Shown piece after piece: positions 12,674 through 32,392 of a stretch of 64,000 bases of DNA (its first letter is position 1; each line of letters opens with the position of its first letter). The translations under genes were made by a program, and so were the position numbers. The notes under the pieces were generated by a model, which saw only the letters and a list, made by a program, of their open reading frames with translations, was not told the DNA's origin and did no database searches. Location of the stretch: assembly GCA_035765895.1 (NCBI GenBank), contig DASTWL010000091.1, forward strand, positions 1 to 64,000, in the 5' to 3' direction. This DNA comes from Verrucomicrobiia bacterium (GTDB lineage Bacteria; Verrucomicrobiota; Verrucomicrobiia; Limisphaerales; DSYF01).

Positions 12674-13354
12674 TTGAAACAACCGAATTCCGAAATCGGT
12701 GTGGCGATTGTCGATGATGAGCCGGTCGTCCGGATTGGTTTGGAGGGTCTCCTGAAGCGCTCGCCCGGGTTTCGCTGTGGCGGGGTCTATTCCGATGCCG
12801 AATCGGCGCTGACAAATCTCCCCAAAAATCCGCCGGATGTGCTGCTGATGGACATTCAGCTTCCCGGCATGGATGGCATTTCCGCCATCCGCTCGCTGCG
12901 CGGGAAGCTGCCGGACACGGAAATCATCATGCTCACCTCGATGGAGGACCACGACCGGATTTTCGCGTCCTTCGCCGCCGGCGCCTCGGGTTACCTGCTC
13001 AAGCACACCGCACCCAACAAAATTCTGGAGGCCATCCGCGAGGTGCATGGCGGTGGTTCGCCGATGAGTGCGCCCATCGCCCGGCGCCTGGTGAAGTTCT
13101 TTGACGGTGACGGCCCGGCTCCCGCCCCGCCCACACCCGCCGTGCAGAATGTGGAAAACAACCCCAACCTGACGAACCGCGAACAGGAAGTGCTCAGCCT
13201 CATGGCCGAGGGCCTGTTGTATAAGGAAGCGGCTGATCGTCTCGGGTTGAGCGTGGACACGATCCGCGCGCACTTGCGAAACATCTACAAGAAGCTCCGT
13301 GTGCGCAATCGCACCGAAGCGATCCTCAAACTGTCCGAAGCGAAACCGGAGTGA
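12674..13354 (+). CDS. NarL/FixJ-type response regulator with LuxR DNA-binding domain
   Basis: The TTG at 12674, just after GCGGAG, gives a 226-residue protein starting KQPNSEIGVAIVDDEP. The receiver domain (about 1-120) shows the acidic pair in VDDEP, the phospho-acceptor aspartate in LLMDIQLPGMDG and the switch residues in IIMLTSMEDHD and GYLLKH. The LuxR helix-turn-helix occupies the last 65 residues (LTNREQEVLSLMAEG, TIRAHLRNIYKKL). GTG 12659 is an alternative start; the ATG at 12533 would add a very basic, non-conserved tail. No cognate histidine kinase is nearby. It diverges from the exopolysaccharide cluster and may regulate it (inference). Its 3' end overlaps nagB by 29 bp tail to tail. 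Confidence 0.88.
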   Translation: MKQPNSEIGVAIVDDEPVVRIGLEGLLKRSPGFRCGGVYSDAESALTNLPKNPPDVLLMDIQLPGMDGISAIRSLRGKLPDTEIIMLTSMEDHDRIFASFAAGASGYLLKHTAPNKILEAIREVHGGGSPMSAPIARRLVKFFDGDGPAPAPPTPAVQNVENNPNLTNREQEVLSLMAEGLLYKEAADRLGLSVDTIRAHLRNIYKKLRVRNRTEAILKLSEAKPE

Positions 13355-14135
13355 CTCCGCGCGACGGCGCAGTTCCTTCCGCCGGCATCCGCCGGTGCCG
13401 GTCGGGTTCGCGGAGCCGGCCCGCGACCGTTTCGTCCAACACCACGGTGCAATCGTGATGCAATTGCAGAGCCGTGGCCGTGACCCGGCTGGTGAGCGGC
13501 CCTTCGATCGCCTGCGCCACGATGTGGGCCTTTTCCGCGCCGGTGGCCAGCAGCACGCACCGCCGGCAATCCAGAATGGTGCCCACACCCATCGTGATGG
13601 CGCGACATGGCACTTCATCGGGCGGGGTGAACAACGGGCCGTTCTGCTCCCGCGTCACCGGTGACAGCGCCTCGACGCGCGTCCGCGACCGCAGTGCTGA
13701 GAGCGGTTCGTTGAACCCCAGATGGCCGTTCCGACCAATGCCGAGCAATTGCAGATCGATGCCGCCGCACTGCTGGATGAGCTGCTCGTAGCGCGCACAT
13801 TCCGCCTCCAGATCGCGCGCCATGCCATCCGGCAGATGGGTGTTCCGCATGTCAATGTTCACCTGCTGGAACAGGTGATGATTCATGTAATGCCGGTAGG
13901 AGTTCCGGTGTGCGCCGGGCAGTCCCACGTATTCGTCGAGATTGAACGTCCGGCAGCCGGAGAAATCGAGACCCGCCTCCCGGTGCAATGCCACGAGCCG
14001 GGCGTAAACCGCCTCCATCGTGCGGCCCGTGGCCAGGCCCAAAACCAGTCGCGGGTTCGCCCGCAACGCTTCAGCGATGATTTGCGCCACCCAGTTGGTG
14101 GCCGCCGACACCGTCGGTTGAATGATGACGTCCAT
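13326..14135 (-). CDS. nagB: Glucosamine-6-phosphate deaminase
   Basis: NagB converts glucosamine-6-phosphate to fructose-6-phosphate and ammonia, the step that sends amino sugars into glycolysis. The 269-residue protein (ATG 14135) shows FNLDEYVGL with the proton-relay Asp, LLGIGRNGHLGFNEP with the catalytic His and Asn, and the GLATGRTMEAVY phosphate-binding segment. Length is normal for the family. The C-terminus runs about 10 codons past the end of the response-regulator gene on the other strand. It diverges from the PIG-L deacetylase gene across 231 bp, and nagA is not visible nearby. Confidence 0.93.
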   Translation of the reverse strand: MDVIIQPTVSAATNWVAQIIAEALRANPRLVLGLATGRTMEAVYARLVALHREAGLDFSGCRTFNLDEYVGLPGAHRNSYRHYMNHHLFQQVNIDMRNTHLPDGMARDLEAECARYEQLIQQCGGIDLQLLGIGRNGHLGFNEPLSALRSRTRVEALSPVTREQNGPLFTPPDEVPCRAITMGVGTILDCRRCVLLATGAEKAHIVAQAIEGPLTSRVTATALQLHHDCTVVLDETVAGRLREPDRHRRMPAEGTAPSRGVTPVSLRTV

Positions 14136-14366: not shown

Positions 14367-15233
14367 ATGGCCATGAATCCTTATCACGACTTCGTCAACT
14401 CCTTCGCCCGCCTCGTCACCGACGGCAAAAGGCTGCCCCTGGGTGGCATCGCGCCGCATCACCGGCCCGCGCCTCCCGCCAGCGCCCCTGCAGCCCTGAT
14501 CTTTTCGCCCCATCCCGACGACGAATGCATCATCGGCGGACTCGCCCTGCGCCTGATGCGCGAAGCGGGATTGCGCGTCATCAACGTGGCCGTCACGCAG
14601 GGCAGCAACAAGGAACGCCAGCAGCCGCGCCTCGTGGAATTGCGCAACGCCTGCGGCTGGCTGGGCTTTGAGCTCGAGCAGACCGCGCCCAACGGCCTCG
14701 AAAAAATCAACCCCAAGACCCGCACTGGCGACCCGCAGCATTGGGCCGCCGCCGTCAAGGTCATCGCCGCCTCACTCGCGAAGCACCAGCCCCGCGTCAT
14801 TTTCTTCCCGCATGAACTGGACTGGAACAGCACCCACATCGGCACGCATCTGCTGGTGATGGACGCGCTGAAAACCCTGCCGGCGAGCTTCACGTGCTTC
14901 CTGGTCGAGACCGAGTTCTGGGGCCAGATGGCATCGCCCAATCTCATGGTGGAATCCAGCGCGGAAGACGTGGGCGACCTGCTCGCGGCGCTTTCGTTTC
15001 ACGTTGAGGAAGTGCGGCGCAACCCATATCACCTGCGGATGCCCGCGTGGCTGCAGGACAATGTCCGCCGCGGCGCGGAACTGGTCGGTGGCCAGGGTGG
15101 TGCCGCGCCCAATTTCATGTTTGCCACGCTCTATCACCTGCGGCGTTGGCGCCACGGCGCGGTGCAGGACGTGTATCCGGGCGGACGGCACCTGGGCGAA
15201 AAGGAGTCGCCTGCCGCCCTGTTTCAGGACTGA
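14367..15233 (+). CDS. PIG-L family (LmbE-like) N-acetylglucosamine deacetylase
   Basis: This 288-residue cytoplasmic protein has the PIG-L zinc-site motif FSPHPDDECIIGG near residue 50 and the later HELDWNSTHIGTH motif near 155. The family removes N-acetyl groups from GlcNAc-containing substrates (GlcNAc-PI, GlcNAc-malate, chitobiose). It diverges from nagB, which suggests it supplies a de-acetylated amino sugar to the same pathway. The exact substrate cannot be told from sequence. An in-frame ATG two codons downstream (14373) is an equally good start. Confidence 0.88.
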   Translation: MAMNPYHDFVNSFARLVTDGKRLPLGGIAPHHRPAPPASAPAALIFSPHPDDECIIGGLALRLMREAGLRVINVAVTQGSNKERQQPRLVELRNACGWLGFELEQTAPNGLEKINPKTRTGDPQHWAAAVKVIAASLAKHQPRVIFFPHELDWNSTHIGTHLLVMDALKTLPASFTCFLVETEFWGQMASPNLMVESSAEDVGDLLAALSFHVEEVRRNPYHLRMPAWLQDNVRRGAELVGGQGGAAPNFMFATLYHLRRWRHGAVQDVYPGGRHLGEKESPAALFQD

Positions 15234-15299: not shown

Positions 15300-16301
15300 A
15301 TGGTCACACAGGAACAAATCGCGCGGAAACTGGGGATTTCCCGCCAGCTCGTGACCTTTGCCCTCGCCGGCTATCCGCAGGTGGCGGCCAAATCGCGCCA
15401 GCGCATCCTGGAGGCGGCCCGGGAGATGGGCTATCGCCCCAACCCGCACGCCCGCGCCCTCAAACGCGAACGCACCGGCATCGTGGCCCTCTGGGTGCCG
15501 GACCAAATTTCCACCCATTACACGCACGTCGCCCGGGAACTGAACCGCCTCGTCAAGCAGGGCCAGCACGAATTGATCATCAGCGAAGTGCGCTCCGCCG
15601 AGGCCGAGGCGGTGTTGTCCCACGTGCCGGTGGATGGAATTTTCGCCGTGGACGCGGCCGCGCTGGTGAAGGCGCACCTGCGTTCCCCGGGCACGCGTTC
15701 CATTCCCGTCATCAGCATCGGGGCCGATGTGTGCGAGCAGACCGATCACGTGCGCGTGGATTTGCGCGCCGGCACGGAGGAACTCATGGCCCACCTGCTT
15801 GAATCGGGTTATCGACGCATCGCCCACGCCACGTTCATCCGCCAGGAGCGCGCCCGCCCGGGCCGGCGCTATGGCTACGCCCAGGCCATGCGCAAGGCCG
15901 GCCGGCCCACCGAGTTCATTTACTATCCTCTATCCGAGCAGCAACGTCCCATCACCCGCCAGCTCATCCGCGATTACGTCGCGGCCCATGGACATCCCGA
16001 AGCCATTTTTTGCCATTCGGATGATGCTGCGCTGGGGATTTACCGCGGCTTGTGCGACCTCGGGCTGCGGGTGCCGGCGGACGTGGCGCTCGCGGCGTGC
16101 GACGGCATTCAGGACACGGAATACCTGGAATGTCCGCTGACGACCCTGGTGCAGCCCGTGGCCGAAATGTGCGAACAGGCCTGGCAATTTTTGGTGCGGC
16201 GCCTCGCGCAGCCGAAGGCCCCCCGCCAGCAGGTGGTGCTCAAGCCCACGCTGGCCATCCGGGCATCGTCCCGACGCACTGATTTTCCCCCGCCGTCGTG
16301 A
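15300..16301 (+). CDS. LacI-family transcriptional regulator
   Basis: This 333-residue regulator starts with the LacI helix-turn-helix (TQEQIARKLGISRQLVTFALAGYPQVAAKSRQRI), followed by the hinge YRPNPHARALKR and a periplasmic-binding-protein-like sensor domain. ATG 15300 is preferred over 15258 because it places the helix-turn-helix at the N-terminus as usual. The gene follows the PIG-L deacetylase and precedes the sugar porter. Two near-identical 14-bp operators (16351-16364 and 18336-18349) upstream of the porter and of the GH109 operon are its likely targets, with an amino sugar or derivative as the likely effector (inference). Confidence 0.92.
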   Translation: MVTQEQIARKLGISRQLVTFALAGYPQVAAKSRQRILEAAREMGYRPNPHARALKRERTGIVALWVPDQISTHYTHVARELNRLVKQGQHELIISEVRSAEAEAVLSHVPVDGIFAVDAAALVKAHLRSPGTRSIPVISIGADVCEQTDHVRVDLRAGTEELMAHLLESGYRRIAHATFIRQERARPGRRYGYAQAMRKAGRPTEFIYYPLSEQQRPITRQLIRDYVAAHGHPEAIFCHSDDAALGIYRGLCDLGLRVPADVALAACDGIQDTEYLECPLTTLVQPVAEMCEQAWQFLVRRLAQPKAPRQQVVLKPTLAIRASSRRTDFPPPS

Positions 16302-16350: not shown

Positions 16351-16399
16351 TTATCTCGTGATAATTAAGATTGGCAATCCAATTGTGCCGCGCTAAAGT
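16351..16399 (+). promoter_or_regulatory. LacI-type operator and promoter of the sugar porter gene
   Basis: The 14-bp TTATCTCGTGATAA (16351-16364) is an imperfect palindrome centred on CG, the usual plan of LacI-family operators. Seven bases on lies TTGGCA (16371-16376), then 17 bp to TAAAGT (16394-16399), a credible sigma-70 promoter. The operator recurs with one base changed at 18336. Confidence 0.6.
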
Positions 16400-16530: not shown

Positions 16531-18330
16531 ATGAGCAACCATCCCAACCCTGCCGGGGGCAACCCCAAAACCGGCTACAACCGTTTCCTGCTGCTGGTCG
16601 CCGGCCTCGGTGGACTGCTTTACGGCGTGGACGTCGGCATCATCGCCGGCGCGCTGCCGTATCTGGAGGCGACGTCCGGTCTGAGCGCCAACCAGCTTTC
16701 GGTCATCGTGGCGGCGGTGCTGCTGGGCAGCGTGATCTCAACGCTGTTCGCCGGCCTGCTCGCGGATTTGCTGGGCCGCAAGAAATTGATGGCCGTAAGC
16801 GGCATCCTGTTTGTCGCGAGCATTCCGATGATTGCTCTCGCGCACGGCTACGGCGCGTTGGTGTTTGGCCGCTTGCTGCAAGGCATCAGCGCCGGGCTCA
16901 TTGGCGTGGTGGTTCCGTTGTATCTGGCGGAATGCCTCGGCGCCGCCCAACGCGGCAAGGGCACGGGCATGTTTCAATGGCTGCTGACCCTGGGCATCGT
17001 CGTCGCGGCGGTCATCGGCTACTGGTTCAGCCTGCGTGTGGCGACCATCGAGAAGCTGAACGATCCGGCGAAGCTTTTTGCGTTCAAGGACACCGCGTGG
17101 CGCAGCATTTTCTGGGTGTCGCTGCCGCCCGGACTGCTCTTCGTGCTGGGCAGCCTGTTCGTCGCAGAATCGCCGCGCTGGCTGTTCCGTCGCGGGCGCA
17201 CCGACGCCGCGCGCGCCGCGTTGCTGCGCTCGCGCACCAACGCGCAGGCGGAGATGGAACTGAAAGAAATGGAAGAAGCCGCCGCCGCGGAAAAGGCGAA
17301 GTCAGATTCCGCCGGCCAAAAGGTCAAGGAATCGCTGCTGCACCGGAAATACGTCCTGCCGTTCGTGCTGGCGTGCATCATTCTCGCCTGCAACCAGGCC
17401 ACCGGCGTCAACTCCATCATCGGCTACAACGCCACCATCCTGATTCAGGCCGGGCTGAGCGATGCGCACGCACACCTGGGCTACGTCATCCTCACGCTGG
17501 TCAACTTTCTCGTCACCATGATCGGCGTGGCGCTGGTGGACAAGAAGGGCCGCAAGTTCCTCCTGTCGCTCGGCAGCGCCGGCATCATCGCCTCGTTGAT
17601 CTGCGCCGGCCTGGTGTTTCAACGCACCGAAAAACAGCGCGTGGACGTGAAGGACCAGGTGCAGGCAATGGTCACCACCAACCAGACGGCGACCATCGAA
17701 TTCAACGCGGGAACGGCCGCCGCCTTGCTGGGCGGCCACGCCGGCTCCGAACCCGCCACGCTGGTGGTGATTTATTCCTATGGCGATTTCCACGCCGCCT
17801 CGAAGGTCGTGCGTTCAGACGACGTCGCGGCCAAGCTCGAAATCGACCGCGCCAGCTGCCTGCCGCCAAACCAGGTGGCCGCGTTCTTCCAGAATCCGTT
17901 TGCCGACCTGGAAAAATCCAAGACCGCGCCGCTGACCATCGACAACGCGCTGATTACGCCCGTGCCGCCGGAAAGCACGGGCTGGCTGACCGCGGTGTGC
18001 ATTTTCTGCTTCATGGCGTTTTTCGCCGTCGGGCCGGGCGTGTGCGTGTGGCTGGCGCTCTCCGAATTAATGCCCACGCGCATCCGCTCCAACGGCATGA
18101 GCGTCGCGCTGCTCATCAACCAGGCGGTCTCGACGACCATCGCGGCCATCTTCCTCCCCAGCGTGGGCAAGCACGGTTACGCGACGATGTTCTTCATCTT
18201 CGCCGGCTGCACGGTGGTTTACTTCATCACCGCCACCTTCTTCCTGCCGGAAACCAAGGGCAAGACATTGGAGGAAATCGAGGAACATTTTGAAGGCCGG
18301 CAGCGCAAGCCGGCCGATGCCACCGCTTGA
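16531..18330 (+). CDS. Sugar-porter family MFS transporter with extracytoplasmic insertion
   Basis: This 599-residue transporter of the sugar porter family carries the hallmark motifs: GVDVGIIAGALPYL in helix 1, GRKK after helix 2, GRLLQGISAGLIGVVVPLYLAE in helices 4-5, ESPRWLFRRGR after helix 6, and PETKGKTLEEIEEHF at the C-terminus. Usual length is about 460-480. The excess is a hydrophilic block of about 115 residues (about 363-480) between the ninth and tenth helices, predicted to face the periplasm. The substrate is probably an N-acetylhexosamine or related sugar, judged from the amino-sugar genes on both sides and the shared LacI-type operator. Confidence 0.9.
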   Translation: MSNHPNPAGGNPKTGYNRFLLLVAGLGGLLYGVDVGIIAGALPYLEATSGLSANQLSVIVAAVLLGSVISTLFAGLLADLLGRKKLMAVSGILFVASIPMIALAHGYGALVFGRLLQGISAGLIGVVVPLYLAECLGAAQRGKGTGMFQWLLTLGIVVAAVIGYWFSLRVATIEKLNDPAKLFAFKDTAWRSIFWVSLPPGLLFVLGSLFVAESPRWLFRRGRTDAARAALLRSRTNAQAEMELKEMEEAAAAEKAKSDSAGQKVKESLLHRKYVLPFVLACIILACNQATGVNSIIGYNATILIQAGLSDAHAHLGYVILTLVNFLVTMIGVALVDKKGRKFLLSLGSAGIIASLICAGLVFQRTEKQRVDVKDQVQAMVTTNQTATIEFNAGTAAALLGGHAGSEPATLVVIYSYGDFHAASKVVRSDDVAAKLEIDRASCLPPNQVAAFFQNPFADLEKSKTAPLTIDNALITPVPPESTGWLTAVCIFCFMAFFAVGPGVCVWLALSELMPTRIRSNGMSVALLINQAVSTTIAAIFLPSVGKHGYATMFFIFAGCTVVYFITATFFLPETKGKTLEEIEEHFEGRQRKPADATA

Positions 18331-18335
18331 ACTGA

Positions 18336-18384
18336 TTATCTCGTGCTAAATATCACTTGATCGAGGTGGACCTTGCGCTAGGCT
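18336..18384 (+). promoter_or_regulatory. LacI-type operator and promoter of the GH109-NahK operon
   Basis: TTATCTCGTGCTAA (18336-18349) repeats the operator at 16351 with one change. TTGATC (18357-18362) and TAGGCT (18379-18384), 16 bp apart, form a possible promoter at nearly the same offset from the operator as at the porter gene. It begins 6 nt after the porter stop and lies about 160 bp upstream of the GH109 start. Confidence 0.55.
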
Positions 18385-18542: not shown

Positions 18543-19982
18543 ATGAACAACGCCAGCACCTCCCGTCGGGATTTTCTCAAGCAGTCCGCCCTCGCCGGCG
18601 TGGCCGCGTCGCTGACCGGCCTGGCCAGCGGTTGCGCCAGCCCTGGCCCGGACGGCAACTCGAACACAAGCGCCCACAACGACGATTATCCGCCACGCCC
18701 GGCGGGCCAGAAGCCGGTGCATGATTTGACCACCAAGCCGCGGGAACGCATTCGCGTGGCGCACATCGGGCTGCATCGCGGCATGACGCACGTGCACAAC
18801 TGCCTCAAGCTCGATTACGTGGACGTGGTGGCCGTTTGCGACCTGATCGACGACCGGGCCCAGGCTGCGGCCAAGGCCTGCACCGACGCCGGCCGGCCGC
18901 GGCCAGCCATTTACAGCGGCACCGAACACATCTGGGAAATGATGGTGGACCGCAATGATCTCGACGCCGTTTACATTGCGACGCCGTGGGCCTGGCACGT
19001 GCCGATGGCGTTGCGCACGATGGAGCAGGGCAAACACGCCTTCATCGAGGTCGCGGCAGCGGTGACGATCGAGGACTGCTGGCGGCTGGTGAACACCAGC
19101 GAACGGGTGCAAAAGCACTGTGTGATGCTGGAGAACTGCTGCTACGGTGAGAATGAATTGTTCGTGCTGAACATGGCGCGCGAAGGTGTGTTTGGCGACC
19201 TGGTGCATGCCGAATGCGCCTACCTCCACGATCTGCGGTCCATGCTCTTCAGCCTGGGCACGGAAGGCGACTGGCGGCGCGATTATCACTGGCAATACAA
19301 CGGCAATTTGTATCCGACGCACGGCCTCGGCCCGGTGGCGCAATATCTCGGCGTGGGCCGTGGCGACCAGTTCAAGTTCCTCGTCTCCATGAGTTCGCCC
19401 GAACGCTCGCTGACCCAGTATCGCAACGAGCACCAGCCCAACGGCGGCCGGCACAAGAACGAGAAATACCTCTGCGGCGACATGAACACCTCGCTCATCA
19501 AGACAGAGCAGGGGCGCAGCATCATGGTGCAGCACGACGTGGTGCTGCCCCGTCCCTACAGCCGCATCAACGCCCTGTGCGGCACCGATGCGACGTTCTT
19601 CGACTACCCGGCCCGGCTGGCCATCGACAAGCCCAAGCAATACGGGCTGGCCGCCGGCGGTTCCGAAGAGTGGCTCGACGATGCGGACCTCGCGAAAATG
19701 CGGGCGCAATTCACGCACCCGCTCTGGCGCAAACTGCAGGAAAGCGCCAAGGGCGGCGGACACGGCGGCATGGATTTCGTCATGAACTGGCGGTTGATCG
19801 ATTGTCTCCGCACCGGCCGGACGCCCGACAGCGTCGTTTACGATGCGGCCGCCTGGAGCAGCATCATCGAACTTTCGGTCCGGTCGGTGGCCGGCGGCAG
19901 CGTGCCGGTGGACATTCCCGATTTCACCCGCGGCCTGTGGCGCGACCTGAAACCGCTGGGCATCGCCGGCAAAAACATTTGA
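18543..19982 (+). CDS. GH109 family glycosidase (alpha-N-acetylgalactosaminidase type), Tat lipoprotein
   Basis: This 479-residue member of the Gfo/Idh/MocA superfamily belongs to GH109, whose members use NAD in a redox-type mechanism to release alpha-linked GalNAc. An N-terminal Tat signal (SRRDFLKQS) ends in LASGC, so it should be an exported lipoprotein. After the dinucleotide-binding part come DAVYIATPWAWHVPMAL and the family-typical NGNLYPTHGLGPVAQYL, holding the conserved Tyr/His pair. It is the first gene of an operon with GH20, a ROK-like kinase and NahK, so released GalNAc can be phosphorylated after uptake. A simple sugar dehydrogenase is the main alternative. Confidence 0.88.
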   Translation: MNNASTSRRDFLKQSALAGVAASLTGLASGCASPGPDGNSNTSAHNDDYPPRPAGQKPVHDLTTKPRERIRVAHIGLHRGMTHVHNCLKLDYVDVVAVCDLIDDRAQAAAKACTDAGRPRPAIYSGTEHIWEMMVDRNDLDAVYIATPWAWHVPMALRTMEQGKHAFIEVAAAVTIEDCWRLVNTSERVQKHCVMLENCCYGENELFVLNMAREGVFGDLVHAECAYLHDLRSMLFSLGTEGDWRRDYHWQYNGNLYPTHGLGPVAQYLGVGRGDQFKFLVSMSSPERSLTQYRNEHQPNGGRHKNEKYLCGDMNTSLIKTEQGRSIMVQHDVVLPRPYSRINALCGTDATFFDYPARLAIDKPKQYGLAAGGSEEWLDDADLAKMRAQFTHPLWRKLQESAKGGGHGGMDFVMNWRLIDCLRTGRTPDSVVYDAAAWSSIIELSVRSVAGGSVPVDIPDFTRGLWRDLKPLGIAGKNI

Positions 19983-19989
19983 TGACATT

Positions 19990-21966
19990 ATGAAACACCT
20001 GAAACTTGGCCTCGGCCTCACCGTGATCTCGGTCCTGTCGGCCACGGCCGCCAATTCCCCCGCCCCGGCATTGATCCCGGCGCCCGCACACCTCGAAACG
20101 CATGGCGGCACCTTTCAAATTGATAAATCCACGGTCATCCTGGCCGATGCGCCGTCCCGCGACACCGCCATCATGCTGGCCGCAATGCTGCGGACCGCGA
20201 CGGGCTATCCGCTGCCGGTGCGGACGACGGACAACGCAACGCCCGCAACCCATTCCATCCTTCTGACCACCGAGGGCGCGGACGCACAGCTCGGCCGCGA
20301 AGGCTACGCGCTCGACGTCACCGCACAGGCGGCGGTCATCCGAGCAACGGATCAGGCCGGCCTGTTCTATGGCGCACAAACGCTGCGGCAGTTGCTGCCG
20401 CCGGAGGTGTTTGCCACCCACCGCGTGAGCGGCGTGGCCTGGACGATGCCGGGCGTGACGATCACCGACCAGCCGCGCTTCCCGTGGCGCGGGTTGATGC
20501 TCGACGTCAGCCGGCATTTCTTCACCAAGCCGGAAATCAAGCGGCTGCTCGACGAAATGGCGCTGCACAAGATCAACACCTTTCACTGGCATCTCGTGGA
20601 TGACCAGGGCTGGCGCATCGAAATCAAAAAGTATCCCCGCCTGACGCAGGAGGCGGCGTGGCGCGCGGACGTCGGCTTCGGCTTCCCGCACGACGCGACC
20701 ACGGCCTACGGTCCGGATGGGCGTTACGGTGGATTCTACACGCAGGATGACATCCGCGAGATCGTGGCCTACGCCGCCGCCCGGCACATCACCATCGTGC
20801 CCGAGATTGAAATGCCCGGCCACTCGACCGCCGCGCTGTCGGTCTTTCCGGAACTCAGTTGCGCCGGCGAGGCGTCCGGCGTGCCGACAAACGGAGGGGT
20901 GATGCACGGCATTTATTGCGCCGGCAACGACGCGAGCTTCACCTTCCTCCAGAACGTGCTGACCGAGGTGTTCCAGTTGTTCCCCGGCCAATACATCCAC
21001 ATCGGCGGCGACGAGGTGCCGAAGGACAACTGGAAGAAATGCCCGCGCTGCCAGGCGCGCATCAAGGCCGAAGGACTCAAGAACGAGCACGAGCTGCAAA
21101 GCTGGTTCATCCGGCGCATGGAAAAATTCATCACCGCGCACGGCAAGAATCTCATCGGCTGGAGTGAAATCCGTGAGGGCGGCCTCGCGCAGAACGCCGC
21201 CGTGATGGACTGGATTGGCGGCGGGCTCGAAGCGGCGCGTGAAGGCCACGACGTGGTCATGACGCCGACAAGCTTCTGCTACTTCGATTATTACCAGTCC
21301 CGCGATCACGGCGCGGAGCCCCGGGCGATCGGCGGCTACCTGCCGTTGAGCAAGGTTTACAGTTTTGAGCCGGTGCCCGCCGGATTGGATGCCGCCCAGG
21401 TCCACCACATCCTCGGTGGCCAGGGCAACATCTGGACCGAATACATTCCCAACTTCAAGCAGGTCGAATACATGGCGTTCCCGCGGCTGTGCGCGATGGC
21501 CGAAGTCACCTGGTCGCCGAAGGCGGCCCGCAACTGGACGGACTTCACGAACCGGCTCGCCACGGATGAACAGCGCCTCGACCAGCTTGGCGTGAACTAC
21601 CGCCGCGACACCTCCGTGGCTTTGGGTGAATGGACGCCGGCGCAAATCAAAACGGAAAGCTCGACGCTCAGCTGGGACGTGACCCCGCACGTCACCGCCG
21701 CGGGACAGTATCGCGTGACGTTGAATTACACGACGGGCCAGCACGGCATCGACATCACGACAGTTAAGTTGCTGGCGAACGGCCAGGAGGTCGCGCACGA
21801 CACGCACGCCGGATTTGCCGGCGGACAGCCGCGCAGCCCGGTGTATGTGCTCGACCTCCCGGTCCGCAACGCGGACGCGCACTACACGCTGCAGGCCACG
21901 GTCAAAGGCAGCGGCGGCACCGATTCGCTGGGCGCCGTGTCGTGGGTGTTCAAACCGGCCAAATGA
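19990..21966 (+). CDS. GH20 beta-N-acetylhexosaminidase, secreted
   Basis: This 658-residue enzyme removes terminal beta-linked GlcNAc or GalNAc. A signal peptide ends near residue 21. A GH20b alpha/beta domain follows (about 25-140), then the TIM-barrel catalytic domain (about 150-500) with WRGLMLDVSRHF, TFHWHLVDDQGWRIEI, VPEIEMPGHS and the catalytic pair Asp341-Glu342 in HIGGDE. The last 120 residues form a beta-rich accessory domain. It starts 7 nt after the GH109 stop and its own stop overlaps the next start (ATGA). With GH109 it covers both alpha- and beta-linked N-acetylhexosamines, as on mucin-type glycans or glycosaminoglycans. Confidence 0.94.
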   Translation: MKHLKLGLGLTVISVLSATAANSPAPALIPAPAHLETHGGTFQIDKSTVILADAPSRDTAIMLAAMLRTATGYPLPVRTTDNATPATHSILLTTEGADAQLGREGYALDVTAQAAVIRATDQAGLFYGAQTLRQLLPPEVFATHRVSGVAWTMPGVTITDQPRFPWRGLMLDVSRHFFTKPEIKRLLDEMALHKINTFHWHLVDDQGWRIEIKKYPRLTQEAAWRADVGFGFPHDATTAYGPDGRYGGFYTQDDIREIVAYAAARHITIVPEIEMPGHSTAALSVFPELSCAGEASGVPTNGGVMHGIYCAGNDASFTFLQNVLTEVFQLFPGQYIHIGGDEVPKDNWKKCPRCQARIKAEGLKNEHELQSWFIRRMEKFITAHGKNLIGWSEIREGGLAQNAAVMDWIGGGLEAAREGHDVVMTPTSFCYFDYYQSRDHGAEPRAIGGYLPLSKVYSFEPVPAGLDAAQVHHILGGQGNIWTEYIPNFKQVEYMAFPRLCAMAEVTWSPKAARNWTDFTNRLATDEQRLDQLGVNYRRDTSVALGEWTPAQIKTESSTLSWDVTPHVTAAGQYRVTLNYTTGQHGIDITTVKLLANGQEVAHDTHAGFAGGQPRSPVYVLDLPVRNADAHYTLQATVKGSGGTDSLGAVSWVFKPAK

Positions 21967-23363
21967 TTTCCACCATGAACGTGAAACCGAAGATCATCCC
22001 GCCGCTCGACCCGCAGTTTCAGCCGGCGGTTTTGTTCAACCAGCAATACGTCCGCACCGCCCACCAATCCGGGCGCGCCGTGCCGCTTGTGCTCGGCGTC
22101 GAACGCGAGAATGGCCACGTGTCCCGTTATGCCACCGTCGTGCTGCCCGAGCCGGACGCCGACACGGTCCTTTATCTTGACCGGCTGGTGAAATTTCTGC
22201 TCTGGGCGCGGGGCGGCTGGCGGGTCTGGTTCGGCGGCCCGCGGGCGCTGGGCGAAAAAGTGGCGCAGGTTTATTCCCGCACCGGTGCGCGGGCGTTTGA
22301 CGTGGACCTGATGAGCCGCGTTTACGAACGCCCGTTCGAAGTGGTGCTCACCGAGGCCGCCGCCGTGCCGGCGGAAAAGGAAATGCACTCGACCATTGGC
22401 GGTCATCTCGACGGCTGCCGCATCGGGTTCGACCTCGGCGCGAGCGACTACAAGGTGGCCGCGGTAAAGGAAGGCGAGGTGGTTTACAGCGACGAATTCC
22501 CGTGGAACCCCAAGGACCAGGCCGACCCGCAATACCATTACGAGCACCTCCAGAGCGGCCTGAAAAAGGCCGCCGCGCATCTGCCGCGCGTGGATGCCAT
22601 CGGCGGCAGCTCGGCCGGCGTGATTGTGGACAACAAGATCATGGTGGCGTCGCTGCTGCGGGCCCTCCCACCCGAAAAGTTCGCGCAGGCCAAGAACACC
22701 TTCCTGCGCATTCGCGAGGAATGGGGCGTGCCGCTCGAAGTCGCCAACGACGGTGACGTCACCGCGCTCGCGGGCGCAATGTCGCTCAAGGAAAACGGCA
22801 TGCTCGGCGTGGCGATGGGCTCCAGCGAAGCAGCCGGCTATTTGAACCAGGCGGGCGGCATGACCGGCTGGCTCAGCGAACTGGCCTTCGCTCCCGTGGA
22901 TTACAACCCCCAGGCCGCGTGCGACGAGTGGTCCGGTGACTACGGCGTGGGTGTGATGTATTTCTCCCAGCAAGCCGTCGGCAAACTGCTGCCGGCCGCC
23001 GGCATTGAACTGCCCAAGGAAATGGGCCTGCCCGAGCGCTTGAAGGAAGTTCAGGCGCTCATGGCCAAGGGCGATCCGTGCGCCGCGAAGATTTACGAAA
23101 CGATCGGCGTGTATCTCGGCTACGCGATTCCCCACTACGCGGATTTTTACGCATTCAATCACATGCTGATTCTGGGGCGCGTCACCACCGGCAAGGGCGG
23201 CGACATTGTCCTCGCCCGGGCGCGCGAAGTGTTGGGCCAGGAATTCCCCGAACTGGCCGCCCGGGTGCAACTGCATGTGCCGGACGAAAAGAGCCGCCGC
23301 GTCGGCCAGGCCGTGGCGGCCGCCAGCCTGCCCGCACTGCGCCAGCCGTCCGCACCCGTTTGA
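21963..23363 (+). CDS. ROK-fold sugar kinase-like protein with extra N-terminal domain and no ROK zinc motif
   Basis: The 466-residue protein has an actin-like ROK core beginning near residue 136 with GFDLGASDYKVAAV (ATP site). This is followed by GGSSAGV and VANDGDVTALAG, which keeps the catalytic Asp, and it extends to about residue 455. ROK kinases are usually about 300-330 residues; here some 130 unassigned residues precede the core. The C-x-C-x-x-x-x-C zinc-binding segment typical of the family is absent. The start at 21963 overlaps the GH20 stop (ATGA), so translation is coupled; ATG 21975 is an alternative. The likely role is phosphorylating GlcNAc/GalNAc freed by the two upstream enzymes, but a non-catalytic sensor is possible. 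Confidence 0.78.
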   Translation: MISTMNVKPKIIPPLDPQFQPAVLFNQQYVRTAHQSGRAVPLVLGVERENGHVSRYATVVLPEPDADTVLYLDRLVKFLLWARGGWRVWFGGPRALGEKVAQVYSRTGARAFDVDLMSRVYERPFEVVLTEAAAVPAEKEMHSTIGGHLDGCRIGFDLGASDYKVAAVKEGEVVYSDEFPWNPKDQADPQYHYEHLQSGLKKAAAHLPRVDAIGGSSAGVIVDNKIMVASLLRALPPEKFAQAKNTFLRIREEWGVPLEVANDGDVTALAGAMSLKENGMLGVAMGSSEAAGYLNQAGGMTGWLSELAFAPVDYNPQAACDEWSGDYGVGVMYFSQQAVGKLLPAAGIELPKEMGLPERLKEVQALMAKGDPCAAKIYETIGVYLGYAIPHYADFYAFNHMLILGRVTTGKGGDIVLARAREVLGQEFPELAARVQLHVPDEKSRRVGQAVAAASLPALRQPSAPV

Positions 23364-23385
23364 AACTGAACCGCCTTCCTTCACC

Positions 23386-24120
23386 GTGACGTTTCAAGGG
23401 CACAACGCAACGCTCATCCCGCCGCGGGTTCCAGCGGTCGGCGGGCCGCTGCCGCTGCCCTGCCCCGCCCTGCCGCCGTTCGCCTCCGACGATTTGACGG
23501 CGGTGCGGCACGCCTTCCGCGACGCGCCTGCGTGCCGGCTGCGGCAGGCATGGCGGCCGCAGGCGGAGGCGGACTTTGCGCCCGGCGTGGTCTGGACCGG
23601 CTGGCGCGCGGACCGTCTGCTCGTGCTGGCGGAGTTGACCGATGCGGACATTGTCAGCCCGGCGAACACCACCAGCGAACGATTGTGGGAGCAAGGCGAC
23701 ACGTTCGAGATTTTTTTGCAGGCGGCCGGCCGGCCGGCGTATGTGGAACTGCACATTGCGCCGAACCATCGCCGGCTGCAATTGCGTTACGATGAATCCG
23801 TCACGGTGGACACCGTGCGCATCAGTGGGTCGCTCGCCGCCGCCCGGCAGGACGTGGCGTTCGACGCGGCGGTCTGGTCCGAACCCGCCGCCCGGCGCTG
23901 GTTCGTCCACGCGGCGATTCCCGCCCCGCTCGTCACGGACCGGCCAGGCTCCCTCGCCGGAACGTGCTGGCGGTTTTCCTTCGGCCGCTACGATTACACG
24001 CGCGGCCGGTCCGAACCGGTCATCTCCTCGACGTCCCCGCACGCCGCGCCCGATTTTCACCGATGCCACGAATGGGGCACGCTCCAGTTTCACGATTCGC
24101 CCACTGCACCAAGCCAATGA
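23386..24120 (+). CDS. CBM9-like carbohydrate-binding protein
   Basis: This 244-residue protein starts at GTG 23386, 22 nt after the upstream stop. The longer frame from 23206 overlaps the kinase gene and was rejected. It resembles the stand-alone family 9 carbohydrate-binding (DOMON-like) proteins: WTGWRADRLLVLAELTD, LWEQGDTFEIFLQAAGRPAYVELHI and WRFSFGRYDYTRG mark the beta-sandwich. It has no signal peptide, which is unusual for a carbohydrate-binding protein and suggests a cytoplasmic sensing or delivery role. It overlaps nahK by 4 nt and is enclosed by sugar kinase genes. Confidence 0.7.
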   Translation: MTFQGHNATLIPPRVPAVGGPLPLPCPALPPFASDDLTAVRHAFRDAPACRLRQAWRPQAEADFAPGVVWTGWRADRLLVLAELTDADIVSPANTTSERLWEQGDTFEIFLQAAGRPAYVELHIAPNHRRLQLRYDESVTVDTVRISGSLAAARQDVAFDAAVWSEPAARRWFVHAAIPAPLVTDRPGSLAGTCWRFSFGRYDYTRGRSEPVISSTSPHAAPDFHRCHEWGTLQFHDSPTAPSQ

Positions 24121-25208
24121 ATTCTCCATCCTACGATCTCCGCGCCGTGGCCGGACAGTTTACGATTCACGGGGAATATGTTTCGGCCGCCCCCTACGGC
24201 AGCGGCCACATCAACGACACGTTTTGCGCGGTGTTCCAGCAGGCCGGCGTGCCGGTGCGCTACATCCTCCAGCGAATCAACCACCACATCTTCAAGCGGC
24301 CGGCGGCCCTGATGGAAAACGTGCAACGCGTCACCGCGCACCTGGCCCGCAAGGTCGCCGGCGAACCGGACGCCAGCCGCCGGGTGCTGACGCTCATCCC
24401 GGCGCGCGACGGCCGGGCGTGGCACGTGGATGCCGCCGGCAACCACTGGCGCGCGTATCTCTTCATCGAACGCGCCCGCACCTACGACGCCGTGGAAAGC
24501 GCCGAACAGGCGTTCAAGGCCGCGCGCGCGTTTGGCGAATTCCAGCGGCAACTGGCCGATTTGCCCGCCCCGCGGCTGCACGACACGATTCCGGACTTCC
24601 ATCACACGCCCAAACGCTTTGCCGCGCTGGAAAAGGCGATCGCCGCGGACGTGGCGGGGCGCGCGCAACTGGCCCGGGCGGAAATTAATTTCGCCCTCGC
24701 CCACCAGCCGATGACCCGCGTGCTGCTCGACGCGAACCTGCCGGAACGCGTCACCCACAACGACACCAAGTTCAACAACGTCATGCTGGACGAAGCCACC
24801 GGCGAGGGCATTTGCGTCATTGACCTCGACACGGTGATGCCCGGGCTGGCGCTTTATGATTTCGGCGACATGGTCCGCACCACGACGAGCCCGGCCAAAG
24901 AGGATGAGCGCGACCTGACGAAAGTGGCGATGCAGTTCCCGATGTTCGAGGCGCTCGTGCGCGGCTACCTCGCCGCCGCAGGCGGTTTCCTGACACCGGC
25001 TGAAAAACAACTGCTCGCCTGCGCGGGCAAGTTGATCACCTTTGAAATCGGCATCCGTTTCCTGACCGATTACCTGGCCGGCGACGTGTATTTCAAGGTG
25101 CACCGCGACGGGCACAATCTGGACCGTTGCCGGACGCAGTTCAAACTGGTCGAATCCATCGCGCAGCAGGAAGATGCAATGAACAAATTGGTGGAGAAAT
25201 TGGGATGA
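24117..25208 (+). CDS. nahK: N-acetylhexosamine 1-kinase
   Basis: The 363-residue protein (ATG 24117, overlapping the previous stop) belongs to the aminoglycoside-phosphotransferase fold and matches NahK in length and motifs. These are SGHINDTF near the N-terminus, RVTHNDTKFNNVML with the catalytic Asp and metal-binding Asn, and CVIDLDTVMPGLALYDFGD with the DFG-like metal site. NahK phosphorylates GlcNAc and GalNAc at the anomeric carbon. In the galacto-N-biose/lacto-N-biose pathway it works with a uridylyltransferase, a phosphorylase and a UDP-hexose 4-epimerase. Here the 4-epimerase follows directly (ATGA overlap), but no phosphorylase or uridylyltransferase is in the operon. Confidence 0.92.
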   Translation: MNSPSYDLRAVAGQFTIHGEYVSAAPYGSGHINDTFCAVFQQAGVPVRYILQRINHHIFKRPAALMENVQRVTAHLARKVAGEPDASRRVLTLIPARDGRAWHVDAAGNHWRAYLFIERARTYDAVESAEQAFKAARAFGEFQRQLADLPAPRLHDTIPDFHHTPKRFAALEKAIAADVAGRAQLARAEINFALAHQPMTRVLLDANLPERVTHNDTKFNNVMLDEATGEGICVIDLDTVMPGLALYDFGDMVRTTTSPAKEDERDLTKVAMQFPMFEALVRGYLAAAGGFLTPAEKQLLACAGKLITFEIGIRFLTDYLAGDVYFKVHRDGHNLDRCRTQFKLVESIAQQEDAMNKLVEKLG

Positions 25209-26128
25209 GAATTCTGGTCACCGGCGGCGCCGGCTTCATCGGCAGCCACATCGTCGAACATTTTCAAGGCCACGCCGAGGTGCGCGTGCTGGACAACCTG
25301 CGCTCCGGCTTCAAACACAACCTGGCCGGGCTGCCGCATGAATTCATCGAGGCTTCCATTCTCGACCGCGGCGCCGTGCGCCGCGCCATGGCCGGCGTCG
25401 ATTACGTGTTCCACCTGGCCGCCATGATCAGCGTGCCCGAGTCGATGCAGCAGCCGATTGAGTGCAGCGAAATCAACACGCACGGCACGCTGATTGTGCT
25501 CGAGGAAGCGGCGCGCGCCGGCGTGAAGAAGCTCGCCCTCAGCAGCTCGGCGGCCATCTACGGCGACAACCCGGTCGTGCCGAAGGTGGAAACGATGTTT
25601 CCCGAACCGAAAAGTCCCTACGCCATCACCAAGCTCGACGGCGAATACTACTGCCGCATGTTCGCGGCCGAGGGCCGGCTGGCAACCGTGTGCCTGCGCT
25701 ACTTCAACGTCTTCGGGCCGCGGCAGGATCCCAAAAGCCAGTATGCGGCGGCCGTGCCCATTTTCATTCATCGCGCCCTGCGCCACGAGCCGATCACGAT
25801 TTATGGTGACGGCGGGCAGACGCGGGACTTCATCTACGTGAAGGACATCGCCAAGGCGAACGCCTTCCTCGCCACCGAATCGCCGGCCACCGGCGTGTTC
25901 AACGTGGCCTACGGCGGGCGCATCACGATCAAGGAACTGGCCCAAACCCTCTGCCAGCTGACGGGTTCGCGCTCGGAAATCAGGCACGCACCCGAGCGGG
26001 CCGGCGACGTGAAGCATTCCCAGGCTGCCATCGACAGATTGCGCTCCACGGGCTTCGTTCCCGGCGGCAGCCTCGCAAGCGGGCTCGAAACCACGGTGGA
26101 ATTCTTCCGGCAAAAACTGACCGCCTGA
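25205..26128 (+). CDS. UDP-hexose / UDP-N-acetylhexosamine 4-epimerase-like SDR
   Basis: This 307-residue extended SDR shows VTGGAGFIGSHIVEHF for NAD binding, HLAAMISVPES, the serine of SSSAAIYGD, the Tyr-x3-Lys pair in SPYAITKLDGEYYC and FNVFGPRQDPKSQYAAAVP typical of UDP-sugar 4-epimerases. The last motif resembles epimerases that accept UDP-GlcNAc/UDP-GalNAc. As the last gene of the operon it would interconvert UDP-GalNAc and UDP-GlcNAc made from the NahK product. The start overlaps the nahK stop. A nucleotide-sugar epimerase serving the envelope is the alternative. Confidence 0.85.
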   Translation: MRILVTGGAGFIGSHIVEHFQGHAEVRVLDNLRSGFKHNLAGLPHEFIEASILDRGAVRRAMAGVDYVFHLAAMISVPESMQQPIECSEINTHGTLIVLEEAARAGVKKLALSSSAAIYGDNPVVPKVETMFPEPKSPYAITKLDGEYYCRMFAAEGRLATVCLRYFNVFGPRQDPKSQYAAAVPIFIHRALRHEPITIYGDGGQTRDFIYVKDIAKANAFLATESPATGVFNVAYGGRITIKELAQTLCQLTGSRSEIRHAPERAGDVKHSQAAIDRLRSTGFVPGGSLASGLETTVEFFRQKLTA

Positions 26129-26288: not shown

Positions 26289-27329
26289 ATGAAGCTTAAG
26301 CTGCATGCCTGCGAACTGAAGCTCGTGAATCCGTGGCGCATCGCCAGCTCGATGGGTTCCGGCGCCCACATCGTGGTTCTCTTCGAGCTGACCGACCGCG
26401 ACGGCGTGACTGGCCTGGGCGAAGCTGCGCCCGCCAGCACGTATCAGGAAACCGCCGCCGGCGTGATGGAGTTTTGTCAGGGCCTCGACGCGGGCCGCCT
26501 CAGCTTCGCCGACATTCCCGGCTCGATGGCCTGGGTGAATTCCCTGCCCGGCATGCCGTCCGCGGCGCGGTGCGGCTTGAACCTCGCGCTGCTGGACGGC
26601 GCCGCGAAACGTGCCGGCCAGCCGGTCCATGATTTTCTCAAACTGGGCTTCCGCGAGAACCATCACCTCACGTCGTTCAGCATCGGCATTGACTCGCCGG
26701 AGGTGGTCGCCAAAAAGGTGGCCGACGCGGCGGCCTTTCCGGTGCTCAAGCTCAAGGTGGGCGATCCGCGCGACCGCGAAAACTTCGCGGCCCTGCGTTC
26801 CGTGGCGCCGCGCAAGCCGGTGCGCGTGGATGCCAACGAGGGCTGGAAGACGAAGGAGCAGGCGTTGACGATGCTGGAAACGCTGGCGCAGGACGGGCAC
26901 GTGCAATTCGTCGAACAGCCGATGCCGCGCAATGCCGCGCCCGAGGATCTGATCTGGCTGAAGGAACGTTCCCCCCTGCCGCTCTACGCCGATGAATCGT
27001 GCCACAACATGCGCGACATTCCGCACTGCGCGGAATGTTTCCACGGCGTGAATGTGAAGCTGGTGAAAACGGGCGGGATCAGCATGGCCTACGAAACCCT
27101 GCAGGCGGCGCGCCAGACCGGATTGCAAACCATGATCGGCTGCATGATTGAGACCAGTGTGCTCATCAGCGCCGCCGCGCACCTCGCCGAACTGGCTGAT
27201 CACCTCGACATCGACGGGAATCTCCTCATCAACAACGACCCGTTCCGGGGCGCCACGGCCGTCAACGGTGTGATTTCCTTCGCCGATGCGCCGGCCAAAA
27301 CCGGCCTGTGCGTGGCGCCGCGCGCCTGA
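26289..27329 (+). CDS. Dipeptide epimerase (L-Ala-D/L-Glu type), enolase superfamily
   Basis: The 346-residue protein starts at ATG 26289. It has the muconate-lactonizing subgroup layout: an N-terminal capping domain, then a barrel with the K-x-K pair (Lys154, Lys156 in LKLKVGD), metal ligands Asp181 (VDAN), Glu209 (FVEQP) and Asp235 (ADES), and NVKLVKTGG with the opposing lysine. Members epimerise L-Ala-D-Glu from peptidoglycan to L-Ala-L-Glu so that ordinary peptidases can cut it. The location beside an LD-carboxypeptidase, NamZ and D-Ala carboxypeptidase supports that use. Specificity for other dipeptides cannot be excluded. Confidence 0.87.
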   Translation: MKLKLHACELKLVNPWRIASSMGSGAHIVVLFELTDRDGVTGLGEAAPASTYQETAAGVMEFCQGLDAGRLSFADIPGSMAWVNSLPGMPSAARCGLNLALLDGAAKRAGQPVHDFLKLGFRENHHLTSFSIGIDSPEVVAKKVADAAAFPVLKLKVGDPRDRENFAALRSVAPRKPVRVDANEGWKTKEQALTMLETLAQDGHVQFVEQPMPRNAAPEDLIWLKERSPLPLYADESCHNMRDIPHCAECFHGVNVKLVKTGGISMAYETLQAARQTGLQTMIGCMIETSVLISAAAHLAELADHLDIDGNLLINNDPFRGATAVNGVISFADAPAKTGLCVAPRA

Positions 27330-27330
27330 T

Positions 27331-28311
27331 TCAACGGACGGCCGCCTCGGTCACGATCAAGTCGCCCCGCACGGCATCCAGGCGTGCCCGGGCGCCGCTG
27401 GGCAGCGTGGCATTGTAGGGCTGATGGCCGAAGGGCAGTTCCGTCACCACGGGCACGCCGAGCGGCGTGAGGCGTTCCCGCACCACGTCGGCCGAGGACT
27501 GACGGTATTCGATCTTCTTGGCGGCCCGCGGATCTTCGCAATCGCGGTTCACGCCCACGGCCACGCCGGCAACCTGCTGCAACACGCCGGCGTTGAGCAG
27601 ATGCGTCAGCAGGCGATCCAGCCGATACGGTTCTTCGTTGATGTCTTCGAGAAACAGGAGCCGGTTCTTGAACACGGGCTGCCAGGGCGTGCCCACCGTG
27701 GTCACCAGGATCGACAGGTTGCCGCCCACCAGCCGGCCCTCCGCCACGCCGCGCCGCAAAATCGTGATGTCGCCACGGTTGGGATAGCCTTCGGCGATGC
27801 TGCCCGCCGCCGCCGGCTGGCAGATGGCGCGCAAAAACGCGTCGTTGGAAAAGGCCGGATAGTCTGCGCTGCCGAGTCCCTCGTTCAACATCGGCGAGTG
27901 AAACGTGACCAGGCCGGCCTTTTCGTTGATCGCACAATGCAGCGTGGTGAGATCGCTGTAACCGGCGAACACCTTGGGGTTTTTCCGGAGCACGGCATAA
28001 TCAAGCCGCCCCACGATGCGCGCCGCGCCGTAACCGCCACGCAGGCAGATGAGGCCCTTGACCTTGCGGTCGCGAAACATCGCCATCATATCCGCCGCCC
28101 GGTCGCGATCGCTCCCGGCGAGAAACCCGTGCCGGGCGCGCGCATGGCGTCCGAGCTTCGCCTTGAAACCCATCCGCTCCACCTGGTTGACCGCGCGGTC
28201 CACGGCCTTCGGATTGGGCGGCGGGCTGCAGGGTGCGATGATGCCCACCACATCGCCGGGTTGCAGGCGTTCGGGCTTCACGAGAGTTCTCACGGCGCGT
28301 GTCTGGCTCAT
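27331..28311 (-). CDS. ldcA: Muramoyltetrapeptide LD-carboxypeptidase (peptidase S66)
   Basis: LdcA removes the terminal D-Ala from muropeptide tetrapeptides in the cytoplasm. The 326-residue protein (ATG 28311) shows LQPGDVVGIIAPCSP at the N-terminus, LRGGYGAARI, the nucleophile Ser119 in FAGYSDLTTL, the Glu of FLEDINEEPYRLDR and the His of ELPFGHQPYN, the expected S66 triad. No signal peptide is seen. It lies 13 nt downstream of the class A beta-lactamase-like gene on the same strand and converges on the dipeptide epimerase gene with only 1 nt between the two stops. Confidence 0.93.
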   Translation of the reverse strand: MSQTRAVRTLVKPERLQPGDVVGIIAPCSPPPNPKAVDRAVNQVERMGFKAKLGRHARARHGFLAGSDRDRAADMMAMFRDRKVKGLICLRGGYGAARIVGRLDYAVLRKNPKVFAGYSDLTTLHCAINEKAGLVTFHSPMLNEGLGSADYPAFSNDAFLRAICQPAAAGSIAEGYPNRGDITILRRGVAEGRLVGGNLSILVTTVGTPWQPVFKNRLLFLEDINEEPYRLDRLLTHLLNAGVLQQVAGVAVGVNRDCEDPRAAKKIEYRQSSADVVRERLTPLGVPVVTELPFGHQPYNATLPSGARARLDAVRGDLIVTEAAVR

Positions 28312-28324
28312 GTAACGAAGGGCA

Positions 28325-29746: not shown

Positions 29747-29851
29747 AAACGACACGGTGGGCCTTTCACCGGCGAGTGTAGCGGCGAATTGACGGTTGCC
29801 AAGCCTCGCTGGCCTTGACCTGGACCCGCCTTTCGCGCCACGTTGCGCGGC

Positions 29852-31162: not shown

Positions 31163-31177
31163 ACGCGCCGGCGCCGG

Positions 31178-32275: not shown

Positions 32276-32392
32276 GCTCCGGATATAATGGAAGCCACGC
32301 CCGACCGCACGCGCGAAAGCACGAGGGACCCGGAACGCGCGGTTGCGCCCGCGCGGCGTGCGGACTACTGTGCCCGCAACTTGCGCTGCGTC

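Follow-up and report, generated by a model that had tools for sequence, protein, structure and literature searches.

We analysed 64,000 nucleotides of a Verrucomicrobiia genome (assembly GCA_035765895.1, contig DASTWL010000091.1, positions 1 to 64,000; hereafter the window), concentrating on the six-gene operon at 18543-26128 and the genes flanking it. As read from the sequence, this region is rather likely to be a LacI-regulated locus for N-acetylhexosamine (HexNAc) utilisation, in which a core for N-acetylglucosamine (GlcNAc), comprising a ROK kinase, a PIG-L deacetylase and NagB, is joined by a branch for N-acetylgalactosamine (GalNAc), comprising NahK, a nucleotidyltransferase and a 4-epimerase. 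This reading builds on gene families, folds and motifs, on conserved gene neighbourhoods (ROK beside PIG-L/NagB, the nucleotidyltransferase beside NahK and the epimerase), on a source genome (G000) without NagA above threshold, and on shared operator-like sites. More tentatively, the ROK protein, which is devoid of the zinc motif, and PIG-L may form an undescribed NagA-independent module leading from GlcNAc (or GlcNAc-6-phosphate) to glucosamine-6-phosphate, onto which the NahK/PF00483 nucleotidyltransferase/epimerase branch has been grafted. If true, this would provide a gene-level account of GlcNAc use in some genomes lacking NagA, point to a candidate uridylyltransferase for GalNAc salvage through NahK beyond the bifidobacteria, and give a function to a conserved family of ROK-like proteins that falls below the Pfam cut-off.

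From these observations we infer the substrates, the order of phosphorylation and deacetylation, the uridylyltransferase role, the transporter specificity, the direction of flux and the binding of LacI, and they would combine as follows. A glycoside hydrolase family 109 enzyme (GH109), exported by twin-arginine translocation (Tat), and a family 20 enzyme (GH20) would free GalNAc and GlcNAc, to be taken up via a sugar porter of the major facilitator superfamily (MFS). In the core, the ROK kinase and the PIG-L deacetylase would yield glucosamine-6-phosphate, the likeliest order being phosphorylation of GlcNAc to GlcNAc-6-phosphate by ROK and then deacetylation, with PIG-L replacing NagA; NagB would convert the product to fructose-6-phosphate. 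In the branch, NahK would form GalNAc-1-phosphate, a PF00483 nucleotidyltransferase encoded on contig C34 would turn this into uridine diphosphate (UDP)-GalNAc, and the 4-epimerase would produce UDP-GlcNAc. The latter may enter wall synthesis or, through reversal of the nucleotidyltransferase reaction and a phosphomutase, the GlcNAc route.

A divergent ROK-fold kinase and its partners

The ROK-like protein (21963 or 21975..23363, + strand) had no Pfam match at 1e-3; PF00480 scored 16.7 bits against a gathering threshold of 22.9 (E 0.0055), and was reached at E<0.1 by 14 of 18 homologues from the order. Its AlphaFold2 (AF2) model (pLDDT 88.7) superposed on E. faecalis glucokinase 2qm1 with a Z of 25.9 and a root-mean-square deviation of 3.4 over 295 residues, on P. 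shigelloides GlcNAc kinase with a Z of 25.2, and also on N-acetylmannosamine kinases. The superposed region covers residues 150-462, and about 147 aa at the N-terminus form an additional domain. The motifs DLGASD.K, NDGDVTALA and MGSS.AAG are kept, and the zinc His/Cys motif is lost, SELAF standing for GE(I/V)GH and DEWSGDYGVG for CxCGxxGC. Judged by its model, the protein is a divergent member of the ROK fold.

To describe its surroundings we counted neighbours at 80 named ROK loci from several phyla, the best 80 of at least 558, so that the sample leans toward close relatives; the best-matching named loci belong to Limisphaerales / Verrucomicrobia subdivision 3. PIG-L lay within 6 kb of ROK at 58 of the 80 loci, and immediately downstream (within 250 bp) at 50 of the 78 that had room for it; NagB lay within 6 kb at 22/80. 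Adjacent ROK and PIG-L genes were seen in Verrucomicrobia, Chloroflexi, Acidobacteria, Aminicenantes and Hydrogenedentes, and no PIG-L gene of either ROK-linked subfamily was present at 13 NahK loci without ROK (L046-L058). Across the order, ROK was found in 78 of 97 genomes (55 of the 62 good ones), essentially as a single copy, and NahK in 46 of 78 searched, mostly on contigs other than that of ROK.

These distributions bear on the reading that grew out of the preliminary description of the window, in which all six genes form a single GalNAc-to-GlcNAc pathway via UDP-sugars and the ROK protein is an accessory kinase for HexNAc. NahK, the epimerase and GH109 do share one operon and a nucleotidyltransferase is present in the genome, but ROK is distributed differently from NahK and its constant partner is PIG-L, which makes a single pathway very unlikely. 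Of the two kinase-like proteins then counted to the UDP-sugar route, the ROK protein is indeed kinase-like by its fold; it is, however, no second NahK, and stands outside that route as part of a conserved ROK/PIG-L/NagB module. ROK and PIG-L form a widespread gene pair, to all appearances undescribed, which may stand in for a textbook step in the breakdown of GlcNAc. A literature search, thin on subscription journals, gave no paper on ROK with PIG-L, on PIG-L with NagA, NagB or a glucosamine-6-phosphate deaminase, on LmbE with such a deaminase, or on NahK with GH109.

PIG-L, NagB and the lack of a NagA match above threshold

The PIG-L protein (14367..15233, + strand; PF02585 5e-13) contains the motifs HPDDE and THIGTH, with H49, D51, D52 and H157 invariant, and belongs to a second subfamily whose close relatives directly follow ROK in other genomes of the order. 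The NagB-type glucosamine-6-phosphate deaminase homologue (13326..14135, - strand; PF01182 3.7e-22) is oriented divergently from the locus. In the source genome, which is 96% complete, no NagA (TIGR00221) scored above the cut-off, and the fragments found had a best E of 8.8e-5. Within the order, NagA above the NCBIfam cut-off occurred in 1 of 44 genomes with ROK-linked PIG-L versus 7 of 28 without (Fisher p=0.0046; p=0.0012 at a looser NagA threshold; kinship ignored in both), indicating that the two tend to exclude each other. In G023, where ROK has no PIG-L nearby, NagA adjoins ROK on the opposite strand. In the single NCBIfam model PRK02122, positions 31-284 correspond to NagB and those from 373 onward match PIG-L. 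Long PIG-L proteins of the order were considered as NagB-PIG-L fusions and rejected, the example in G085 consisting, by eye, of PIG-L and a region resembling a family 9 carbohydrate-binding module (CBM9), and the PRK02122 matches in 58 genomes being to the NagB part only.

The proposed core resembles NagK-NagA-NagB catabolism in combining a ROK-fold kinase with a NagB deaminase. It differs in that NagA is not found above threshold in G000 and PIG-L is linked instead, and in that the ROK protein is divergent, with its zinc ligands lost and an N-terminal domain added. PIG-L/LmbE family deacetylases also act in the archaeal Dac route of GlcNAc use, and the core could be reversed in this manner, PIG-L deacetylating free GlcNAc and ROK serving as a glucosamine or general hexose kinase. 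We regard this order as unlikely, though as the least so of the alternatives. The ROK fold is equally near to glucokinase and GlcNAc kinase, and diacetylchitobiose deacetylase 8bgo is among the PDB-level matches of PIG-L, but at an E of 0.12 the similarity to Dac is not significant, and gene adjacency fits either order of steps alike. Deacetylation by PIG-L in GlcNAc use would be common to the archaeal route and the one proposed here, whereas the latter is bacterial and linked to ROK and NagB.

Several observations weigh against the proposed locus of GlcNAc core and GalNAc branch. The ROK-PIG-L-NagB adjacency is broken in the window, where PIG-L sits upstream of LacI and has no operator-like site ahead of it, and the PIG-L subfamily usually linked to ROK was not found in G000. 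Aligned with E. coli NagB, the nearby homologue shows Asn in place of Asp141 (GIGRNGHLGFNEP). PIG-L deacetylases act on many substrates, and the function proposed for this one is drawn from linkage. The statistic for exclusion between NagA and PIG-L disregards phylogeny, and among the 72 genomes of the order that were compared, 21 (14 at the looser NagA threshold) carry ROK but no linked PIG-L and no NagA. The nucleotidyltransferase of G000 is unlinked, lying on another contig (C34) where none of the neighbouring genes is recognisable as an amino-sugar gene. The window locus is a rearranged version of the module; an intact NagB copy is encoded at C91:68497-69267. Given the rearrangement, the second-subfamily PIG-L and the Asn-bearing NagB with its intact counterpart, the deacetylase and deaminase assigned to the operon are putative ones. 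This catalytic-site exchange of Asp for Asn is shared with L105, and GIGTNGH variants are also present in L131, L137 and L143, with Aminicenantes and Acidobacteria records among the carriers.

A proposed GalNAc branch

NahK (24117..25208, + strand; PF01636 1.2e-20) matched the solved NahK structure 4wh1 over essentially its full length (6.1e-80, residues 8-354) and has intact kinase motifs, THNDxKxNN at residue 213 and DLDTxMPG at 236, as expected for an N-acetylhexosamine 1-kinase. The epimerase (25205..26128, + strand; PF01370 1.5e-61) has the motifs of the short-chain dehydrogenase/reductase (SDR) family, GGAGFIG from residue 7 (GxxGxxG) and YAITK at 139-143 (YxxxK), and its nearest solved relatives include 6dnt, 6wjb, 4zrm, WbgU and WbpP. 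Where E. coli GalE has its gatekeeper Tyr299, the epimerase has Ser (GDVKHS vs GDLPAY), as does WbpP, an enzyme acting on UDP-HexNAc. The Ser gatekeeper is permissive, as expected for UDP-HexNAc substrates.

A UDP-sugar route through NahK and the 4-epimerase, as first suggested, is consistent with the NahK motifs, the Ser gatekeeper and the presence of GH109 in the operon; its partners, then called unknown, now include a candidate. No uridylyltransferase gene lies beside NahK in the window. Elsewhere, a PF00483 nucleotidyltransferase of about 286 aa directly adjoins NahK in five genomes of the order, twice in G075 (L040, L041) and otherwise at L044, L045, L048/L094 and L099, which makes six loci, and likewise in the Chloroflexi record L140. 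Its homologue in G000 (C34:92775-93617, 57% identity) is close to PDB 3pnn (4.5e-91), deposited merely as a conserved domain protein. We propose this family as the candidate for the missing uridylyltransferase; its position beside NahK points to HexNAc-1-phosphate rather than galactose-1-phosphate as substrate. In G075 there are two nucleotidyltransferase-NahK-epimerase sets (L040, L041), each with a separate porter gene nearby.

As the UDP-HexNAc pyrophosphorylase that the preliminary description had suggested looking for, a PF01704 protein of G000 (C14) was considered and ruled out, being of the UDP-glucose pyrophosphorylase type (2oef 8.8e-136). A GlmU profile had no match above cut-off in G000, so GlmU provides no sure uridylyltransferase. 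Lacto-N-biose phosphorylase (PF09508), which had been called absent along with the uridylyltransferase, had no match in G000 and none in any control genome either.

The branch is like the bifidobacterial lacto-N-biose/galacto-N-biose pathway (GLNBP-LnpC-NahK-GalE) in pairing a NahK-type 1-kinase with a 4-epimerase having features of UDP-HexNAc enzymes. Unlike that pathway it has neither phosphorylase nor GalT-type uridylyltransferase near NahK, the PF00483 nucleotidyltransferase taking this place in relatives, and the glycosidases release free HexNAc. Another PF00483 protein, Akkermansia Amuc_0031 (galY), is linked to galE and was predicted to replace GalT in a 2017 comparative study (PMC5583593). 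The likeness to galY, at the family level, extends to clustering with a galE-type gene in Verrucomicrobia, but here the PF00483 gene (in relatives) sits beside NahK.

NahK and the epimerase might instead be biosynthetic, making UDP-GalNAc for a surface polysaccharide and keeping company with catabolic genes by chance, since the solved epimerase relatives WbpP and WbgU are O-antigen enzymes. The module is, however, placed beside GH109, GH20 and porter genes in several genomes and has an operator-like site in common with the porter, so we consider this quite improbable.

Operon structure and predicted regulation

The genes at 18543-26128 form a real operon of six co-directional genes in the order GH109-GH20-ROK-like-CBM9-like-NahK-epimerase. 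Their close packing, already noted in the preliminary description, is borne out by short junctions: +7 nt for GH109/GH20, -4 or +8 for GH20/ROK, +22 for ROK/CBM9, and -4 for both CBM9/NahK and NahK/epimerase. Instead of the four ATGA overlaps first counted, the last two junctions contain certain ones and GH20/ROK a possible one, depending on whether ROK starts at 21963 (-4) or at 21975 (+8), the start favoured by homologue alignment. The families named for the other five genes all held up, by profiles, solved relatives or fold; what had been overlooked were the flanking genes for LacI, the sugar porter, PIG-L and NagB.

The LacI-family regulator (15300..16301, + strand; PF13377 4.8e-31, PF00356 4e-6) and the MFS sugar-porter family transporter (16531..18330, + strand; TIGR00879 above cut-off, PF00083 1.6e-88) are separated by an operator-like palindrome, TTATCTCGTGATAA (16351..16364, + strand). 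A second site, TTATCTCGTGCTAA (18336..18349, + strand), is the same sequence with one mismatch and lies 193 nt ahead of the GH109 start. No other site in the window matched TTATCTCGTGATAA at three or fewer mismatches. The identical 14-mer occurs between LacI and porter in the relatives L104 and L123, and a degenerate form in L041. We read it as the predicted operator of the LacI protein. When 13.2-26.4 kb was scanned for promoters and terminators, promoter-like sites were no commoner than at the shuffled level. The operon, a sugar-scavenging one from a bacterium of the Verrucomicrobia type, is probably co-regulated and most likely converts GalNAc and GlcNAc into nutrients or into precursors of the wall.

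In a search of related genomes, as the preliminary description had suggested, GH109, GH20, ROK, NahK and the epimerase were seen to recur together, and the arrangement is therefore beyond chance. Some relatives are fuller, the order being porter-GH109-GH20-ROK-PIG-L-NagB-NahK-epimerase in L125 and porter-ROK-PIG-L-NagB-CBM9-nucleotidyltransferase-NahK-epimerase in G075 (L040).

Glycosidases, CBM9-fold protein and neighbouring genes

The GH109 alpha-N-acetylgalactosaminidase homologue (18543..19982, + strand) contains GH109_C (PF21252, 169 bits with a cut-off of 27, E 6.7e-50) and a Rossmann domain (PF01408, 34.1 bits with a cut-off of 24). It carries a Tat signal by TIGR01409, keeps the motifs YPTHG.GP and GHGGMD, and its solved relatives are 6t2b (2e-115), the nearest and itself a glycosyl hydrolase family 109 protein, and 2ixa (1.5e-72). 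The GH20 beta-N-acetylhexosaminidase homologue (19990..21966, + strand; PF00728 5.3e-122) has the catalytic Asp-Glu pair (GGDE from residue 339). The CBM9-fold protein (23386..24120, + strand, GTG start) has no obvious signal peptide and is below the Pfam cut-off (PF06452, 0.0051); its AF2 model (pLDDT 70) adopts the CBM9 fold (7nwn, Z 19.2, 2.5 A, 176 residues; 1i82, Z 19.0). Elsewhere, a 634-aa protein (L101:1403-3307) combines, by eye, a PIG-L domain with a C-terminal CBM9-like region.

Immediately downstream of the operon, 26289-37301 carries peptidoglycan-turnover genes, namely L-Ala-D/L-Glu-epimerase-like, LD-carboxypeptidase S66, serine hydrolases, HGSNAT-like, S13 carboxypeptidase and NamZ exo-muramidase. 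The operon might accordingly serve peptidoglycan recycling, with GH20 and ROK handling wall-derived GlcNAc and NahK and the epimerase making UDP-sugars for reuse. The position of the L-Ala-D/L-Glu-epimerase-like, S66, S13 and NamZ genes (26.3-37.3 kb) argues for this, and so do G001, G045 and G093, where the epimerase-like gene is next to ROK or to its porter. However, the substrate of the GH109 family, alpha-GalNAc, is no wall sugar, the 1-kinase is of the NahK type, and we noticed no MurU-like gene next to NahK; recycling therefore appears improbable. An APH-family kinase on C85 was considered as AmgK and rejected, having no MurU-like neighbour by eye. The same region (L083:6038-11830) also holds sugar-kinase-like, aldolase-like, aldehyde-dehydrogenase-like and enolase-like genes, identified by eye except for the APH match, and possibly represents an unrelated sugar pathway.

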